Source of the DNA: Bacilli bacterium
GTDB lineage: Bacteria; Bacillota_I; Bacilli_A; RF39; UBA660
Reading direction: 5' to 3'
DNA: 36,522 bases
Assembly (NCBI GenBank): GCA_017432665.1
Contig: JAFRIS010000016.1
Location: 1 to 36,522, forward strand
Below, in pieces: positions 1,184 to 19,806 of the stretch (its first letter is position 1; every line of letters begins with the position of its first letter). Both the position numbers and the translations under genes were made by a program. The notes under the pieces are model-generated. The model saw nothing but the letters and a program-made list of their open reading frames with translations, ran no database searches and was not told the origin of the DNA.

Positions 1184-1200
1184 TCAGTGCTTTTATTTTT
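1165..1200. terminator. Bidirectional terminator between convergent genes
   Basis: A 9-base stem (1169-1177 with 1186-1194, core AAAGCACT/AGTGCTTT) has A-rich and T-rich flanks, so it can terminate in both directions. Its loop holds the TAA of the plus-strand gene, and its right arm touches the stop of the minus-strand gene. Confidence 0.8.
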
Positions 1201-2647
1201 TGAATGCTGACATTAAATTCACTAAAATATCTTTTGATCTAATTAATGTATATACTTCAGAATTATCCCAAACACATCTTACAGCAGAATTCAAAATATC
1301 ATTTGTTTCTCCTGGATATAATCTGTATTTACCTTTTGGATAAGAATAATCAAAGAAGAAAATTGGAATTTGAGTTTCATAGTCAATAGTAACCATTTCA
1401 GTATTATATGGCGCTAATGGCAATGACTTTTTCATCCCATATAATGATGTAATAAATAACGAGTGTTTATTCTCACAGACTTTAGCGACATTACCCAAAA
1501 TTATATCTATTTTAGTTAAATTTTCTTTTATATCATTAACTGTTTGCCCTTTATCCATAAAACAATCAAAGATAATTATGTCATAGATAGAGTTATCTAT
1601 TAATCCTAGAATATTATTATAATCATTATAATAAGTATCATTCATTTTCATAAATTGAATTGATGGATTATTAACATTATTTAAACCATTAGCTAGTAAA
1701 TTTACTAAACCAATATTTTTTTCATCAGTAATAATTAATGCTTCTTTATCAGATTTCTCCAATAATAATGAAAAACTACTTTTATATTCAACATTTTCAG
1801 AAAACGCTGGTATTTCATGTTTAGAATATAATTTTATTAATGAATACATTGGCAAATTAAATGTATCAGTCTTGAATGCTTCAGGTGCATTATTTAAAAT
1901 CGAATTAATAAATTTATCATAATCATCTTTTCTAGTATTAAAGAACATAATTGTATCATTATTACTAATAAAACATGTATTAGTAGCACAGAATCCAGGT
2001 GCAACACAAGGTCTAATATTAGCTTCTTGTAATGAAAGTAACTTTTTATCAGTATCTATCCATCTTTCTGCTGAACAATAGAATAATAACTTTTTCGCAA
2101 AATCGTTTTCATCTTTTGTTGGATTTTCAGTAAAGTATTCTTTACCAATTATGAATCCTACAGTTATATGAGTATTAAGATGATACTTTATATAATTAAC
2201 AGTACTTATTAAGTCTTTATAATCACTAACTGTTAATTGTGATAATAATAGGTGCAGATATATTTCTTTCTTTTCCGGAAGTGTTAAACTATTAACTAAA
2301 TTATTTATTATATCGACAACTTGCTTATCATTAGGTTCTACAAATATATGTAGTTTTCCTTCCCCAGAAACACTTTGTTGAAAACTTTGATATGTAGGAT
2401 TACCTGGTAATTGTTGATTAATAACATTAGTGTTGATATAACTTAGTTCCAAACTATAAGTATCTCCTAAAAAGAAACGTTGATATGCTCCTCTATATTC
2501 TAATGATTTAGTATATGCTGTAGTGAAATAAGATGTTTCTTTTACATGAGCAAGATTAGGCATACATTGATCAATAGCGATACTATAACTGCCAGGTCTT
2601 TCTATACCCAAACCATTTATTAAAAATATTACACTTTTCTTTGCCAT
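1193..2647 (-). CDS. iPGM-fold pseudoenzyme (alkaline phosphatase superfamily)
   Basis: This 484-residue protein follows the order of cofactor-independent phosphoglycerate mutase (usually about 510 residues). The N-terminus VIFLINGLGIERPGS matches the metal-binding start ALIILDGFG. FFNTRKDD matches the FYNFRPDR block. IIIFDCFMDKGQ matches the NYANPDMVGH block. LFITSLYGMKKS matches the AIITADHGN block. The catalytic residues are gone: the first metal Asp is Asn, the nucleophile Ser block NSEVGH is unrecognisable, DHGN is LYGM, the DMVGH ligands are lost, and the DGRD and GRYYAMDRD substrate motifs are absent. So it keeps the fold but should not be a mutase; its role is unknown. I chose ATG 2647, behind AGGTGAT; a GTG nine bases upstream lies inside that ribosome site. 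Confidence 0.7.
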   Translation of the reverse strand: MAKKSVIFLINGLGIERPGSYSIAIDQCMPNLAHVKETSYFTTAYTKSLEYRGAYQRFFLGDTYSLELSYINTNVINQQLPGNPTYQSFQQSVSGEGKLHIFVEPNDKQVVDIINNLVNSLTLPEKKEIYLHLLLSQLTVSDYKDLISTVNYIKYHLNTHITVGFIIGKEYFTENPTKDENDFAKKLLFYCSAERWIDTDKKLLSLQEANIRPCVAPGFCATNTCFISNNDTIMFFNTRKDDYDKFINSILNNAPEAFKTDTFNLPMYSLIKLYSKHEIPAFSENVEYKSSFSLLLEKSDKEALIITDEKNIGLVNLLANGLNNVNNPSIQFMKMNDTYYNDYNNILGLIDNSIYDIIIFDCFMDKGQTVNDIKENLTKIDIILGNVAKVCENKHSLFITSLYGMKKSLPLAPYNTEMVTIDYETQIPIFFFDYSYPKGKYRLYPGETNDILNSAVRCVWDNSEVYTLIRSKDILVNLMSAFKK

Positions 2648-2697
2648 TACTATCACCTACTATTATAAATATACAATAATTTTCAATTATTATAAAT

Positions 2698-2729
2698 AAA
2701 AAAACGTAAATCTACAGGTAGTTTACGTT
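2698..2729 (-). terminator. Terminator after map
   Basis: An 8-base stem (2703-2710 with 2722-2729, TTTACG core) is followed on the minus strand by a T-rich tract. It overlaps the map stop codon and ends the mtaB-recD2-map operon. Confidence 0.7.
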
Positions 2730-3480
2730 AATCTAATCTTGGAGTAAATATTTCATAACCATCATCTGTTACTAGAACTGTATGTTCATAATGAGCGGCT
2801 GGTTCTCCATCTTCTGTTTTAACTGTCCAATCATCATCTAATTGATAAACATATCTTTTTCCAAATGTTAACATTGGTTCAATACAAATAACCATTCCTG
2901 GTTTTAATCTTGGACCAGTATTCTCAATTCCAAAGTTAGGTACTTCTGGATCTTCATGCATATCACGACCTATACCGTGTCCACATAATTCATGAACAAC
3001 TCCTAAGTTATGTGATTCAGCATATTTTTGAACTGCGGCAGATATATCTCCTATTCTATTACCGGGTTTTACTTCTTTTATTCCTTCATATAGGGCTTTT
3101 TCAGTATGTTCCATTAAATACTTCTTATCATCATCTATTTCTCCTACAGCATAAGTCCAGGCAGCATCTCCTTGATAACCTTTATAGCCAATAACAACAT
3201 CAATAGTAATAATATCTCCATCTTTTAGTTTATAATTATCAGGAATACCATGAACTACTGTATCATTAACGCTAGTACATAATGTAGCTGGAAAACCTTC
3301 ATATCCTTTACAAGATGGAACTGCATCATTTTTTAAAATGAAGTCTTCACATAACTTATCTAATTCCTTAGTAGTTATTCCTGCCTTTATATATGGTTTT
3401 ATAAACTTATGCATCTTAGATACTAACATACCTGCATGACGCATTAATTCTAATTCTCTTTCGCTTTTTATGGTAATCAT
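2728..3480 (-). CDS. map: Methionine aminopeptidase, type I
   Basis: This cytosolic metalloprotease removes the initiator methionine from new proteins. The 250-residue length is the normal size for a type Ia enzyme with no extra N-terminal domain. All five metal ligands of the pita-bread fold are present: D94, D105, H168 (CGHGIG), E201 (IEPM) and E232 (HYEHTV). The substrate-contacting H77 (VHGIP) is also present. The ATG at 3480 follows GGAGGT at good spacing. It sits 34 bases downstream of recD2 with no terminator between, so it is probably the last gene of that operon. In many Firmicutes map lies near secY and adk in the ribosomal protein cluster; here it does not. Function is near certain. 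Confidence 0.97.
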   Translation of the reverse strand: MITIKSERELELMRHAGMLVSKMHKFIKPYIKAGITTKELDKLCEDFILKNDAVPSCKGYEGFPATLCTSVNDTVVHGIPDNYKLKDGDIITIDVVIGYKGYQGDAAWTYAVGEIDDDKKYLMEHTEKALYEGIKEVKPGNRIGDISAAVQKYAESHNLGVVHELCGHGIGRDMHEDPEVPNFGIENTGPRLKPGMVICIEPMLTFGKRYVYQLDDDWTVKTEDGEPAAHYEHTVLVTDDGYEIFTPRLD

Positions 3481-3514: not shown

Positions 3515-5701
3515 TTATTCTATACCTTCAATTAAATAATCTTTAATAGTTGTTCTTCTAATATCCATATTGATATTCTTAGAAGCAAAGTCTAATGCTT
3601 TAAAATCTCCAATAATATATAATTTCTTTCTAGCTCTAGTCACAGCAGTATAAATAAGTTTTTGATATAGCATTTTATTATATCCTTTAACTATTGGGAT
3701 AACTACAACATCAAATTCTGATCCTTGGGCTTTATGAATACTAATCGCATAAGCTAATCTAAAATTATTATAATTACTAGGTGTATATTTAACTATATTA
3801 TTATCAAAATCAACATGTATTTCACTTCTAGGAGTATTGACTATTCTATGTATTAAACCAATATCTCCATTATAAACATTATCATCAGGCATATTAGTAA
3901 GTTGAATTACTTTATCACCTTCACGTAATATTTCTCCACCTGACTCTTTAGAATTTTTTTCTTTACTTTTAGGATTAAATATTTCTTGAACTTGTTTATT
4001 AATTATATCAATACCATTAAGTCCTTTGTACATAGGAGCTAATATTTGAAAATCATGATAATTTAAATCTAAATATGTATGACATATTTCAGATATATTA
4101 GTAGTTACTTCACTATCAGGACATTCAATAAAAGTAAGATCATCACTAATATTAAATATATCTTTATTAATACTACTATTCCTAATATCATAAGCTAAAC
4201 TAATAATATTAGAATCTTGTCCTTGTCGATATAATTCAGTTAACTCAACTACTTCTAGTTTTTCTGAAGCAATTAAATCGTGTAATACATTACCAGGTCC
4301 TACACTAGGTAATTGATGATCATCACCTATTAAAATAATTTTACAATTACTAGAAATACCTTTTAATAAACTAGCCATTAAATAAGTATCTACCATACTA
4401 GATTCATCTAAGATAACAAATTCTACTTTACTTTTATTATATTCGTTTACTTGAAAAGTGTTTGATTCTTTTTGCCATTTTAAGAATCTATGAATTGTAC
4501 TAGCTCTAACTAAAGTGGATTCAGTAATTCTTTTCGCAGCTCTTCCAGTAGGAGCAAGTAAAGCAACTTTTTCAGTTAACTTTTCATAACTAAGATTATT
4601 CATCATACGATATAGTTCAATAATACCTCGCATAATAGTAGTTTTACCTGTACCAGGACCACCAGTTATGATTAAGAAGTCTTTCATATAACTTTTTTTA
4701 ATTGCTTCTCTTTGGTGTTCATTATAAGTAATTTCAAAGAAACTTTCTATTCCTTTAATAGTTGTATCTAACTTTTTATTAACTGTTTCTTTATTACTAT
4801 TTAATAATCTAAATCTTTTAACTATTAAACATTCTGCTTCATACATTTCTCTTAAATAATATCTATCATTTTTAATAACTATTTTAATATCTTTTTCTAA
4901 TTCATTTAAATATTTATCTAAATCAAATATTTCTATGCCTAATACTCTAGGTAAATAAGTACTTATCTCATCATAGTAATAATAACTATGTCCAAAAGTA
5001 TTACTTACTTCATTCATAATATAAATAATAGAAGCTTTAATACGATTAGAATCATCTTTAGAAACACCATTTTCTAAAGCTATATTATCTATCTTTTTAA
5101 AATACATTTCATTAATATCATCAATTACTTTATAAATGTTATTTTCTATTATTTCTTTGGTTCTACCCTTATAAGTATTATATATTAACATAGAATCTCT
5201 AGTAGAAAATCCCATATCAGTTAAATACATAATTACTTCATAACTAGCTTCATATTCTTTTAATTTATCATGTAATACATTAACATTTTTTTCACTAATC
5301 CCAGGTATTAAAATCAAATTAGACGGATTGTCTAAAATTGTTTTTAAAGTCTCTTTTCCTAAAACATCAACAATTGCTTTAGCTTTCTTTTCTCCAATTC
5401 CAGGAAATAAACCACTAGTTAAGAATTCAATAATAGAATCTTCTTCTTCTGGTTTAATTCTTTCATAACTATCTACTTGAAATTGTTCTCCATATTTAGG
5501 ATGATTTACTAATTTGCCATAAAACATATATGTATCATGATTATTTAATTCATGGAAATAACCAGTAAAGGTAATTGTTCTACCTATATAGTTAGCTAAC
5601 TTTTCATCATTTGTATCAGAAACGCGAAAAATACCGATATAATAACCGGTACTATTTTCATAAATACTTTTTGAAAATGTTCCTTTTATATAAGTAGACA
5701 T
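3515..5701 (-). CDS. recD2: RecD2-type ATP-dependent DNA helicase
   Basis: This is a 728-residue superfamily 1B 5'-3' helicase of the RecD/TraA class, the form found in bacteria without RecBC partners and tied to DNA repair and replication-fork upkeep. It has an N-terminal OB-like region (YTGYFHE-type strand), helix-hairpin-helix repeats (SGLFPGIGEKKAKAIV, LILIPGISEKN), Walker A GGPGTGKT at about 347-354, and Walker B ILDESSMVD at about 430-438. A UvrD-like C-terminus ends in SIHKAQGSEFD and YTAVTRARKKLYIIGD. I chose ATG 5701, which has AGGAGG just before it; an upstream TTG at 5719 would put this ribosome site inside the coding region. It begins 7 bases after the mtaB stop, suggesting translational coupling. 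Confidence 0.95.
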   Translation of the reverse strand: MSTYIKGTFSKSIYENSTGYYIGIFRVSDTNDEKLANYIGRTITFTGYFHELNNHDTYMFYGKLVNHPKYGEQFQVDSYERIKPEEEDSIIEFLTSGLFPGIGEKKAKAIVDVLGKETLKTILDNPSNLILIPGISEKNVNVLHDKLKEYEASYEVIMYLTDMGFSTRDSMLIYNTYKGRTKEIIENNIYKVIDDINEMYFKKIDNIALENGVSKDDSNRIKASIIYIMNEVSNTFGHSYYYYDEISTYLPRVLGIEIFDLDKYLNELEKDIKIVIKNDRYYLREMYEAECLIVKRFRLLNSNKETVNKKLDTTIKGIESFFEITYNEHQREAIKKSYMKDFLIITGGPGTGKTTIMRGIIELYRMMNNLSYEKLTEKVALLAPTGRAAKRITESTLVRASTIHRFLKWQKESNTFQVNEYNKSKVEFVILDESSMVDTYLMASLLKGISSNCKIILIGDDHQLPSVGPGNVLHDLIASEKLEVVELTELYRQGQDSNIISLAYDIRNSSINKDIFNISDDLTFIECPDSEVTTNISEICHTYLDLNYHDFQILAPMYKGLNGIDIINKQVQEIFNPKSKEKNSKESGGEILREGDKVIQLTNMPDDNVYNGDIGLIHRIVNTPRSEIHVDFDNNIVKYTPSNYNNFRLAYAISIHKAQGSEFDVVVIPIVKGYNKMLYQKLIYTAVTRARKKLYIIGDFKALDFASKNINMDIRRTTIKDYLIEGIE

Positions 5702-5708
5702 ACTCCTC

Positions 5709-6980
5709 CTACTCTCCAATACAATATGGATATTCTATTTTTATTATACGCACATTCTTAAAACTATTGTGAGGATACTCTCCTTTAATTTTAACATATA
5801 AATAATTACCTGTATGACCATAACTATAGCCGTCTTTTACTTCCTCTATTAATACTTCTACTTCTCTATTAATAAATTTATTCATATAATTATTTTCCAA
5901 TTCATGTGATACTTCTATTAATTTTCTAGCTCTTTCTTTAACGATACCTCTTTCTATTTTATTGGTCATTCTAGATGAAGCAGTTCCTTTGCGTTCACTA
6001 TATGGAAAGACATGCAATTTAGAAAATTCTAGTTTTCTACATGTATCAATAGTAGTTTCAAATAATTCTTCAGACTCTCCAGGAAAACCTACAATAACGT
6101 CTGTACTAATACTAATTTCTGGTCTAATAGATCTTATTTCTTTAATCTTTTCAAAAAAGAAATCTAAATCATATTTTCTATTCATTGCTTTTAATATTTC
6201 ATTAGAACCAGCTTGAATAGGAATGTGTAGATGATCTACTAATACTTTAGAATTTCTCAGTACATTTAATACTTTATTATTTAATTCAGTTGTTTCAATG
6301 GAAGATATTCTAAGTCTTTCTAAACCATCTATTTTAACTAACTTTTCTAATAAATCAGCAAAGTCAGTATCTAAATCTACTCCAAAACTTCCTGTATGAA
6401 TACCAGTAAGTACTATTTCTTTATAACCATTATTAACTAAGTCAGTTACTTCACTAATTACTTTAGATTCTTCTTTACTACGGCATTTACCTCTTACAAA
6501 TGGAATAATACAGTAACTACAGAAGTTATCACAACCATCTTGTATTTTTACAAAGGCACGAGTACGACCCGGGAAATCCGTAATATACATATCTTCAAAT
6601 TCTTTTAGGCGACCTGTGTATTGTTTATTAATTATTTCTTTATTTTTAAAATATTCATCTAATAAACTTACTATCTTAGCTTTATCTTTATTACCAATGA
6701 TAATATCTAAACCATCAATTTGAATATCTGGATTAGCTGCGATAAAACAACCCATAGCAACTACGCAAGCATTTGGATTTTTTCTAATAGCTTGTCTAAT
6801 CATCTTTCTACTTTTAGAATCACTATTATTAGTAACAGTACAAGTATTAATAATATAGACATCACAAATATCATCAAATTCTTTTATCTCATAACCTGCT
6901 TTTTTAAGTTCATTAATAACATATTCAGACTCATAAGTATTAACCTTACAACCCAATGTCATAACTCCCACACTCTTCAT
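5709..6980 (-). CDS. mtaB: tRNA t6A37 methylthiotransferase MtaB
   Basis: This radical-SAM enzyme adds a methylthio group to t6A at position 37 of tRNAs that read ANN codons. The 423-residue protein has the UPF0004 domain with cluster cysteines C11 (GCKVNTYES), C47 (INTCTVT) and C78 (AMGCF). The radical-SAM triad CxxxCxxC is at C150, C154 and C157 (GCDNFCSYC). A TRAM-like C-terminus ends the protein. GCKVNTYES and INTCTVTN favour MtaB over MiaB (which has GCQMN) or RimO. The ATG at 6980 has a weak ribosome site (AGTGAT). It is the first gene of an operon with recD2 and map and has its own promoter at 7010-7038. Confidence 0.95.
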   Translation of the reverse strand: MKSVGVMTLGCKVNTYESEYVINELKKAGYEIKEFDDICDVYIINTCTVTNNSDSKSRKMIRQAIRKNPNACVVAMGCFIAANPDIQIDGLDIIIGNKDKAKIVSLLDEYFKNKEIINKQYTGRLKEFEDMYITDFPGRTRAFVKIQDGCDNFCSYCIIPFVRGKCRSKEESKVISEVTDLVNNGYKEIVLTGIHTGSFGVDLDTDFADLLEKLVKIDGLERLRISSIETTELNNKVLNVLRNSKVLVDHLHIPIQAGSNEILKAMNRKYDLDFFFEKIKEIRSIRPEISISTDVIVGFPGESEELFETTIDTCRKLEFSKLHVFPYSERKGTASSRMTNKIERGIVKERARKLIEVSHELENNYMNKFINREVEVLIEEVKDGYSYGHTGNYLYVKIKGEYPHNSFKNVRIIKIEYPYCIGE

Positions 6981-17536: not shown

Positions 17537-17556
17537 AAAACTACTAAAGTAGTTTT
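17537..17556 (-). terminator. Terminator after the prepilin peptidase gene
   Basis: An 8-base stem AAAACTAC/GTAGTTTT (17537-17544 with 17549-17556) is followed on the minus strand by TCTTTTATT. It overlaps the stop codon. Confidence 0.75.
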
Positions 17557-18311
17557 ATAAATTCAATAATATTTGGAACATTTATACCTGTAAAATAAAC
17601 AAAAGTAAAAGCAATCAGTAAAAACGGTCCAAAAGGAACTAATCTCTCATGTTTTTTAACTAATAATAATAATGATACAGGTAAGGCTAAAATACTACCT
17701 ATAAAGATAACAATTAGTCCTAATAATGGATGAAGTATTAAACCAAAAACAAACATCATTTTAATATCTCCACCACCAAGAGTTTCTTTCTTAAAAACAA
17801 AATTACCAAGTAACATTATTCCATACATTATAGTGAACAAAACTATTCCTGATAAAAAGCATATTACTGTTCCAATAATTCCTACTTGAAGCACTTTAAT
17901 TATTAAGAAATAACCTGAAAAGAAAATTAACAATTCATCAGGAATAATATAATATGATAAATCAGATACAGAAATAATTATTAACATAGATACTATTCCT
18001 AGAGCTATTAATAAGTCATAAGAAAAGCCAAAGGCAAAGTATGCTAAAGCAAATAATACTCCTGTAAAAAATTCCATATATGAAGATAAAGCATCTATTT
18101 TACCTTTACAGTATCGACATCTACCTCTCAATAATAAGAATGATATCAATGGTACCATATCTAATAAAGTTAATTTATGATGACACCTATCACAATAACT
18201 TCTGGAATTCAAAAAGTTTTCGTGATTAGGTAGTCTAGTCCCTACTACAGTAAAGAATGATCCCATTAATAATCCTAAAATAAAAAAGGTAATTAAATAT
18301 AAAGTTTCCAT
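17544..18311 (-). CDS. Prepilin peptidase (A24 family)
   Basis: This 255-residue polytopic membrane aspartic protease cleaves and N-methylates type IV pilin-like signal peptides. An N-terminal zinc-binding loop holds C40xxC43 and C65xxC68. The two catalytic aspartates are D117 (SVSDLSYYIIPD) and D182 (LGGGDIKMM). Its full length with both Cys pairs resembles PilD/ComC rather than the short TadV type. The ATG at 18311 follows a ribosome site in the 17-base gap after the type II secretion F gene, so they are cotranscribed. Its pilin substrates and the assembly ATPase are not in the window. A competence (Com) pseudopilus or a type IV pilus are both possible. Confidence 0.93.
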   Translation of the reverse strand: METLYLITFFILGLLMGSFFTVVGTRLPNHENFLNSRSYCDRCHHKLTLLDMVPLISFLLLRGRCRYCKGKIDALSSYMEFFTGVLFALAYFAFGFSYDLLIALGIVSMLIIISVSDLSYYIIPDELLIFFSGYFLIIKVLQVGIIGTVICFLSGIVLFTIMYGIMLLGNFVFKKETLGGGDIKMMFVFGLILHPLLGLIVIFIGSILALPVSLLLLVKKHERLVPFGPFLLIAFTFVYFTGINVPNIIEFIKLL

Positions 18312-18328
18312 ATATAATTACCTCCTTA

Positions 18329-19768
18329 TTATTTAACTTGACTATAAATAGAGAACATCGGTTGAATAATTGATATTAAGATAACACCAACAACAACGGC
18401 CAAGAAAACAATCATAATCGGTTCTACTAAACTCTTCATCTGATCAATAACGTTTTTATGTAACATTTGGAAGTGCGAAGCAACTTTTTCCATCATTGCA
18501 CCTAATTGACCAGTTGTTTCACCAGTAACAATCATTTCATAAGCAACAATCGGAATAGCCCATTGCCCTCTGAAGGCAGATGATATTGAATCACCACGAC
18601 CTAAGTTTTCAAGTGTTTGATTAATTATTTTAGTATAAACTTCATTACTAGTAATTTTTGATAAGATTTCCATACTATCTGTAATAAATACACCGTGATT
18701 TAATAATGAAGCAAATGTCTTTGTAAAGTTAGCAATTTCATTATAAATAATAACATCTTTAAAAACTGGCAAATGCATTAATATTATTTGAACTCTTTCC
18801 CTAAAAGGCTGAATTCTTTTATATAGTTGTATAAATGTTATAACTACTGCTGCTACAGAGATTACTAATATATACCATTTTTCTTTAATAAAGTTACTAA
18901 CTTTAATAATTATTTGTGTTAAGACAGGTAATGTAGCTCCATTAGACTCAAACATAGAAGTAAATTGTGGAACTAAGTAAGTAAGCATGAATATTAAAAC
19001 TCCGAAGGCAATTGTTAATACGACTGCCGGATATGTCATGGCCGATTTCATTTGCTTACGAGTTTGATCCATTGAAGTATAATATTCTGCCATATCATCT
19101 AGAATCGAAGGTAAATCACCAGTCATTTCTGATGTCTTTACCATGTTTATTAATAACTTAGGGTAAATTTTATCTTGCATCATCATAGCTTCTGATAAAC
19201 TTTCACCTTTTAATAATTGATAAACTAATTCACTGAAACTTTTTCTTAGTTTAGGTTTAGTAGATTGTTTTGCTAAGATTTTAACTGAATCAGCTAAAGG
19301 AATACCAGATTTAATATATGTAGATAACTGAGTTAAAGAGAAAGATAAGTCATTAGCTTTAATAGGAGAATTCATACCGATATCGATATCTCCCTTACCT
19401 CTTTCTTTTACTTCTAGAACTTGGTACTCTTGTGATAATAAGAAATTACGAACATCTTCTTCACTCTCAGCATCAAAAGAACCTCTTTCTTTTTTACCTA
19501 CACCATTAATAATTGTATATTTATAAGACTTTAATGGTCTTCTAACTCTTGTTCTTGAATCACCTGGTTGATCTTGTGGTAACGCAGCCTCTTGAGTACT
19601 AGTAGGTGCAGGGTTATTAGCTAATTGTTGTTGCTGATTATTATTTGCAACAGCTTGTTGTTGATTTGCTTGTTGTTGAGCAGCAGCTTCTGTTGCATTA
19701 GCAGGTGCTGGTGCTGCTTGTTGTTGTACGGCTGTATTAGTTTTAGCATTTTTCTTTTTTCCTAGCAT
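18329..19768 (-). CDS. Type II secretion/type IV pilus inner-membrane protein F (PilC/ComGB-like)
   Basis: This polytopic protein forms the inner-membrane platform for assembling type IV pilus-like filaments. The 479-residue protein has two T2SSF domains (about residues 140-260 and 340-460). Typical helices include AMTYPAVVLTIAFGVLIFMLTYLVP and the final LVEPIMIVFLAVVVGVILISI region. Before them lies a GspF N-domain (YKYTIINGVGKKERGSFDA). Residues 9-69 are an unusual low-complexity tract of Gln, Ala, Asn and Pro (QQQ repeated four times) not typical of PilC or ComGB. I chose ATG 19768, with GGAAGGTAG upstream; a GTG at 19801 is also in frame. It pairs with the prepilin peptidase gene downstream, but no ATPase gene is adjacent. 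Confidence 0.9.
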   Translation of the reverse strand: MLGKKKNAKTNTAVQQQAAPAPANATEAAAQQQANQQQAVANNNQQQQLANNPAPTSTQEAALPQDQPGDSRTRVRRPLKSYKYTIINGVGKKERGSFDAESEEDVRNFLLSQEYQVLEVKERGKGDIDIGMNSPIKANDLSFSLTQLSTYIKSGIPLADSVKILAKQSTKPKLRKSFSELVYQLLKGESLSEAMMMQDKIYPKLLINMVKTSEMTGDLPSILDDMAEYYTSMDQTRKQMKSAMTYPAVVLTIAFGVLIFMLTYLVPQFTSMFESNGATLPVLTQIIIKVSNFIKEKWYILVISVAAVVITFIQLYKRIQPFRERVQIILMHLPVFKDVIIYNEIANFTKTFASLLNHGVFITDSMEILSKITSNEVYTKIINQTLENLGRGDSISSAFRGQWAIPIVAYEMIVTGETTGQLGAMMEKVASHFQMLHKNVIDQMKSLVEPIMIVFLAVVVGVILISIIQPMFSIYSQVK

Positions 19769-19806
19769 ACAAACTACCTTCCTCTTTATCTTTCTATACA
19801 CTTATC

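Follow-up and report, generated by a model that had tools for sequence, protein, structure and literature searches.

The locus and its neighborhood

The window, meaning the whole 36,522-nucleotide stretch of DNA that was analyzed, comes from a metagenome-assembled genome of 1.19 Mb that is 71% complete. Close to its start, a reverse-strand gene encodes a degenerate paralog of independent phosphoglycerate mutase (iPGM). This gene and the features around it are listed below.

1193-2647, reverse strand: degenerate iPGM paralog gene, 484 amino acids (open frame and translation; stop codon at 1193-1195)
2652-2657 (approximate), reverse strand: AGGTGA ribosome-binding site 5' of the paralog ATG (direct sequence reading)
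1169-1194, bidirectional: terminator hairpin common to the paralog and the convergent gene at 239-1183 (folding z -4.46)
2696-2730, reverse strand: hairpin and U-run between map and the paralog, probably the map terminator (folding z -3.13)
2728-3480, reverse strand: methionine aminopeptidase (map), the upstream neighbor (Pfam Peptidase_M24, E 3.8e-54)
3515-5719, reverse strand: RecD2-type helicase, second gene upstream of the paralog (Pfam; order conserved)

The paralog begins with the ATG at 2647, and an alternative in-frame GTG at 2656 was judged a less likely start. A preliminary description, made from the sequence alone, had seen an intact frame with its own ribosome site and terminator. 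This was borne out, with the ATG following AGGTGA and the terminator being common to the convergent neighbor. The protein encoded by the latter gene (239-1183) has 314 residues, with a membrane helix at its N-terminal end, and matches nothing in Pfam; of the relatives inspected, only the closest (L031 and L032) have the gene at that position. Elsewhere in the window (17544-19801), a prepilin peptidase (A24) gene adjoins one for a type II secretion F protein; the two belong to a competence or type IV pilus-like system, here in a small genome.

At every locus of the genus that was inspected, map lay directly upstream of the paralog, and the RecD2 and radical-SAM genes were usually present farther upstream, giving the order rSAM-RecD2-map-paralog. 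The neighbors were considered as a guide to function and rejected: outside the genus they vary without a common theme, and the constancy of map, RecD2, and the radical-SAM gene does not extend beyond the genus. Since the neighbors are kept only within the genus, they provide no functional clue.

The protein has the fold of iPGM

Pfam iPGM_N (PF06415) matched the window protein with an E value of 0.13 and 12.1 bits, compared to a cut-off of 27. An NCBIfam search, which included TIGR01307, gave no match, and a phmmer search of the PDB with the window protein alone found nothing. Against the genuine iPGM of the window organism, entered as a lone sequence, hhalign gave the window family a weak match. 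Since these single-sequence comparisons gave nothing or little, profiles and structure were needed to see the homology to iPGM. Neither NCBIfam nor Pfam, at scores above its cut-off, recognizes the protein, so for these two libraries the earlier remark that no named family is known for it stands.

When 31 family members were set against 31 genuine iPGMs, hhalign gave a probability of 95.3 and an E value of 2.4e-8, with 397 columns in order, and the ortholog profile aligned with the genuine iPGMs across residues 1-405. PF06415 also matched two of the paralogs in the genus directly (E 1e-5) and the long relatives described below above the Pfam cut-off.

An AlphaFold model of the window protein, built from 11 sequences, had a pLDDT of 83.4 and a pTM of 0.80. 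The first 22 Foldseek matches in the PDB were all iPGM chains (E 4e-22 to 1e-19), followed by phosphopentomutases at E 1e-5. VIA-align of the model with the iPGM structure 1EJJ gave a Z of 23.3 over 436 residues, with an rmsd of 7.4 over both domains. This rmsd points to an angle between the domains that may differ from that in 1EJJ, the domain orientation being uncertain in the model. The Foldseek and VIA-align matches indicate that both iPGM domains are present, and the model has the two-domain alkaline-phosphatase/transferase fold. The preliminary description had laid the protein along iPGM from end to end by a few short motifs. These motifs are present in the iPGM order, and the structure prediction and search that it had proposed as a check returned the iPGM fold; a model lacking the alkaline-phosphatase fold was not seen. 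Some similarity to iPGM/GpmI (PF06415 and PF01676; TIGR01307; 1EJJ) also remains in the buried strands and at the residues G12, G14, P30, H100, H132, D231, N237, G321, D381, and P428.

The catalytic and substrate residues are lost

Residues were compared between 42 genuine iPGMs and 67 relatives, namely 31 sequences of the genus, 28 from other genera, and eight longer relatives. The iPGM positions were fixed by motifs and alignment. Fifteen metal, nucleophile, and substrate residues were followed, which we take to be those of the Geobacillus stearothermophilus iPGM, and all 15 were present in 42/42 genuine iPGMs. In the window protein, 14 of the 15 were substituted or deleted. The regions concerned, all placed by alignment, are as follows.

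2606-2623, reverse strand: LINGLG (residues 9-14), once the metal-binding DGxG, with Asp replaced by Asn11
2483-2509, reverse strand: SLEYRGAYQ region (residues 47-55), the old serine nucleophile site, Ser62 to Tyr51 (alignment with the 42 iPGMs)
2231-2257, reverse strand: LHLLLSQLT region (residues 131-139), where the DGRD substrate motif is lost
1922-1951, reverse strand: IMFFNTRKDD (residues 233-242), equivalent of iPGM NFRPDR, with one aligned, non-conserved Arg
1433-1453, reverse strand: ITSLYGM (residues 399-405), equivalent of iPGM TADHGN, with Asp444/His445 replaced by Leu/Tyr

None of the metal ligands (D12, D403, H407, D444, H445, and H462), nor the nucleophile S62, was found in the window protein or in any of the 31 genus sequences. 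In the window protein D12 has become N11, D403 is deleted, H407 is K366, D444 and H445 are L402 and Y403, and H462 is D422. S62 has become Y51, and the ten residues before it (VGLPEGQMGN) are deleted. None of the substrate residues H123, R153, D154, R185, R191, R264, and K336 is kept: H123 is deleted, R153 and D154 are L138 and T139, R185 is K169, R191 is N175, R264 is D242, and K336 is N311. The one residue left, R239, aligns with R261 and is not conserved, since 13 of the 31 orthologs have K or N there.

These results agree with the preliminary description in that the first Asp is Asn, the serine-nucleophile block is missing, DHGN has become LYGM, and DGRD is gone. Its statement that every metal ligand is lost was also correct. 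Its claims that the Arg-rich substrate motif is gone and that every substrate contact is lost were correct except for R239. One result that it had named as counting against it was the recovery of the ligands at shifted positions. None reappeared; the one candidate, D365, two columns away from D403, does not vary within the genus but was rejected since it is missing in relatives outside the genus.

The same replacements recur among the relatives. Position D12 is Asn in 66/67 relatives, the Asp being kept only in the long form L123. The D444 column is Leu in 63/67, the H445 column is Tyr or Phe in 67/67, and Asn or Asp replaces H462. R153 and D154, found in 42/42 genuine iPGMs, occur in none of the 67.

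Strong conservation of several replacements in domain A (N11 at the 94th percentile, L402 at the 91st, Y403 at the 96th, and R/N at K336 at the 88th), together with residues invariant throughout the degenerate family that include H132, E194, W196, D231, N237, and S401, could point to a new enzyme, in which the fold was kept and another active site, perhaps metal-free, acts in the same cleft on a different substrate. We consider this unlikely. The domain-B substrate columns (R153, D154, R185, R191, and R264) and H407 drift, lying between the 5th and 41st percentiles, and the old active-site columns, taken as a set, showed no significant excess of conservation over the remainder of the protein (p 0.24). 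Because of this last result, we do not claim a conserved or retained ligand pocket. No candidate for a catalytic dyad or a metal site can be seen either, and N, L, Y, and F are poor substitutes for two-metal phosphoryl transfer.

Relatives and tree

In the bacterial family to which the window genus belongs, about 19 of 150 sampled genera (about 44/386 genomes) contained degenerate relatives. A profile built from the paralogs of the genus detected full-length relatives in 13 genera, including the window genus (about 35/386 genomes). Longer forms of 520-560 residues, which are more remote, came from six further genera, one of them partly masked. Samples of 395 genomes from the class and 392 from the phylum yielded no short-type member beyond the bacterial family. 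In the class sample outside the family, the best-scoring matches of the long-type profile were genuine iPGMs where they were read. Genuine iPGMs and degenerate relatives form two separate sets by iPGM-model score: complete genuine iPGMs of the class scored about 500-830 bits, short forms less than 70, and long forms 120-253.

The genuine iPGMs were split from all the relatives at 100/100 support in the tree. Assuming that the genuine iPGMs are on the root side, L123 comes first, followed by the other long forms and then by the short forms, including those of the window genus. L123 is an intermediate that retains Asp12 and has ATRELGY in place of GNSEVGH. An intermediate that still has the catalytic Asp, and forms that end in a transmembrane helix, make it possible to reconstruct how the changes followed one another. 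One long form, L144 (G424:C1), lies a few genes away from a genuine iPGM. A 24,507-codon open frame on the same contig spans a masked run of N and should not be read as a giant gene.

The paralog is maintained by selection

The paralog was present in 31/36 genomes of the genus, nearly always as a single open frame. Its dN/dS was 0.13-0.25, at a dS of about 1, and 13 columns are invariant even across the whole divergent degenerate family. Orthologs in the genus share the substitutions and the neighbors, a point that the preliminary description had proposed to check. The loss of the catalytic residues, a scattered distribution in the bacterial family (about 44/386 genomes), and in-frame stops in two genomes of the genus (G002 and G023) are what a decaying iPGM pseudogene would show. 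This explanation is very improbable given the low dN/dS, the nearly always intact frames, the invariant columns, and the conserved place, start signal, and terminator. The preliminary view that the gene is repurposed rather than decayed was upheld by its presence in 31/36 genomes, its dN/dS, its intact frames, and its constant place next to map. By its homology to iPGM, its loss of the catalytic residues, and its purifying selection, the protein qualifies as a pseudoenzyme derived from iPGM.

A genuine iPGM, encoded by a separate gene, was found in 30/36 genomes of the genus. The one in the window organism, on contig C26, matches TIGR01307 at 604 bits and has all the motifs; the preliminary description had proposed a comparison with this enzyme, and this check too came out in its favor. 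The genuine iPGMs of the genus (L041 and L057-L071) are of two types, marked by the motifs VREETDGNAF and IAPKNKYNAF, with about 57-58% identity between types. No iPGM was detected in six of the 36 genomes (G017, G019, G022, G025, G032, and G033). A canonical cofactor-dependent PGM was considered for such genomes and rejected, as those searched gave only sub-threshold matches.

Of the 31 genus genomes with the paralog, 26 also have a genuine iPGM, and in the class sample a second match with an iPGM-level score was obtained for most of the carriers that belong to other genera. Along with the long form of G424 near a genuine iPGM, this would fit a partner or allosteric subunit of the same cell's iPGM, for example in a heterodimer that brings glycolysis to the membrane. 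G017 and G022, each 94% complete, carry the paralog although no iPGM was detected in them; with genome incompleteness as a caveat, this speaks against iPGM as an obligate partner. The two genes are also unlinked in the genus, and iPGM of the Bacillus type is a monomer. Overall, an iPGM partner seems quite improbable.

A predicted membrane tether at the C terminus

Past the endpoint of genuine iPGM, the window protein carries an additional segment.

1196-1237, reverse strand: basic amphipathic tail (residues 471-484), SKDILVNLMSAFKK, proposed membrane-targeting helix (HeliQuest-type D 1.40)

The AlphaFold model has a helix at 474-483, with low confidence. A basic amphipathic stretch past the iPGM endpoint ends all 59 short forms, other examples being KGILNNLFGKK and KGLLTSLLFK, and a C-terminal transmembrane helix was absent from 59/59. 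By the lipid-binding rule D = 0.944 muH + 0.33 z, with a threshold of 0.68 (PMC3189734), the tail exceeded 0.68 in 59/59 short forms and 1.34 in 44/59 (75%), counts that are not independent trials since the short forms are related by descent. Among the C termini of 309 other proteins of the same contigs, 42% were above 0.68 and 14% above 1.34; for genuine iPGMs the numbers were 7/42 and 2/42. The tail is short, and basic C termini are not rare in the AT-rich genomes sampled. Taken together, the basic amphipathic helix at the C terminus suggests membrane attachment, as predicted from sequence.

At the place of this tail, all eight long forms that were readable to the end have a Lys-rich linker followed by one hydrophobic helix, with a mean Kyte-Doolittle value above 1.6. 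This looks like the layout of a tail-anchored protein whose domain would be in the cytoplasm. Long degenerate iPGMs with a C-terminal transmembrane helix are L116-L120, L123-L125, and L139-L145. The predicted C-terminal tether and the graded series of relatives are additions to what the preliminary description had observed.

Discussion

Judged by its sequences, the family has lost the iPGM-type catalytic machinery, yet selection has preserved it in one group of uncultured Bacilli from the gut. Compared to iPGM/GpmI, the window protein lacks the two-metal ligands, the nucleophile, and conserved substrate contacts, with one non-conserved Arg still aligned. It also has the predicted tether and scores far under all curated cut-offs.

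There is a precedent for a membrane-linked member of this superfamily. PbgA/YejM of enterobacteria has a regulatory role and is fixed to the cytoplasmic membrane, and its alkaline-phosphatase-superfamily domain was reported to be without the usual catalytic residues (PMC7018646); another report argued that YejM is a metalloenzyme (PMC7576196). The likeness of the window protein to it is by prediction. The PbgA/YejM domain is periplasmic, has N-terminal transmembrane anchors, and belongs to the sulfatase/LtaS-like branch, whereas the window protein is predicted to be cytoplasmic and belongs to the iPGM branch. The tail resembles the C-terminal membrane-targeting sequences of MinD and FtsA, a short basic amphipathic helix at the extreme C terminus, which in MinD holds the protein at the membrane (PMC6803595). 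The globular parts are unrelated, and the likeness of the tails is one of character, not homology.

The protein is probably a catalytically dead, membrane-tethered iPGM paralog with a binding or regulatory role rather than a catalytic one. In this scheme, an iPGM paralog kept its two-domain fold, lost the di-metal site, serine nucleophile, and substrate-binding residues, and would then have been retained for another job. The C-terminal amphipathic helix, which may have replaced the transmembrane tail anchor of the older relatives, would hold the protein at the cytoplasmic side of the cell membrane. There it could serve as a scaffold or sensor on a tether, its function being to bind another protein or a metabolite. 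That it is a regulator is what we infer.

Among kinases and proteases, pseudoenzymes are a familiar phenomenon. Our full-text searches, which covered one open-access library and cannot exclude such a case, found no report of an iPGM pseudoenzyme. The findings also carry a warning for annotation: the more iPGM-like of the long forms exceed the Pfam iPGM_N cut-off and risk being labeled as a glycolytic enzyme, though they cannot work as one. More speculatively, these pseudoenzymes might, on the cytoplasmic side of the membrane, sense a glycolytic phospho-metabolite or gather enzymes of glycolysis, in which case the series of relatives would record the path from a glycolytic enzyme to a membrane regulator.
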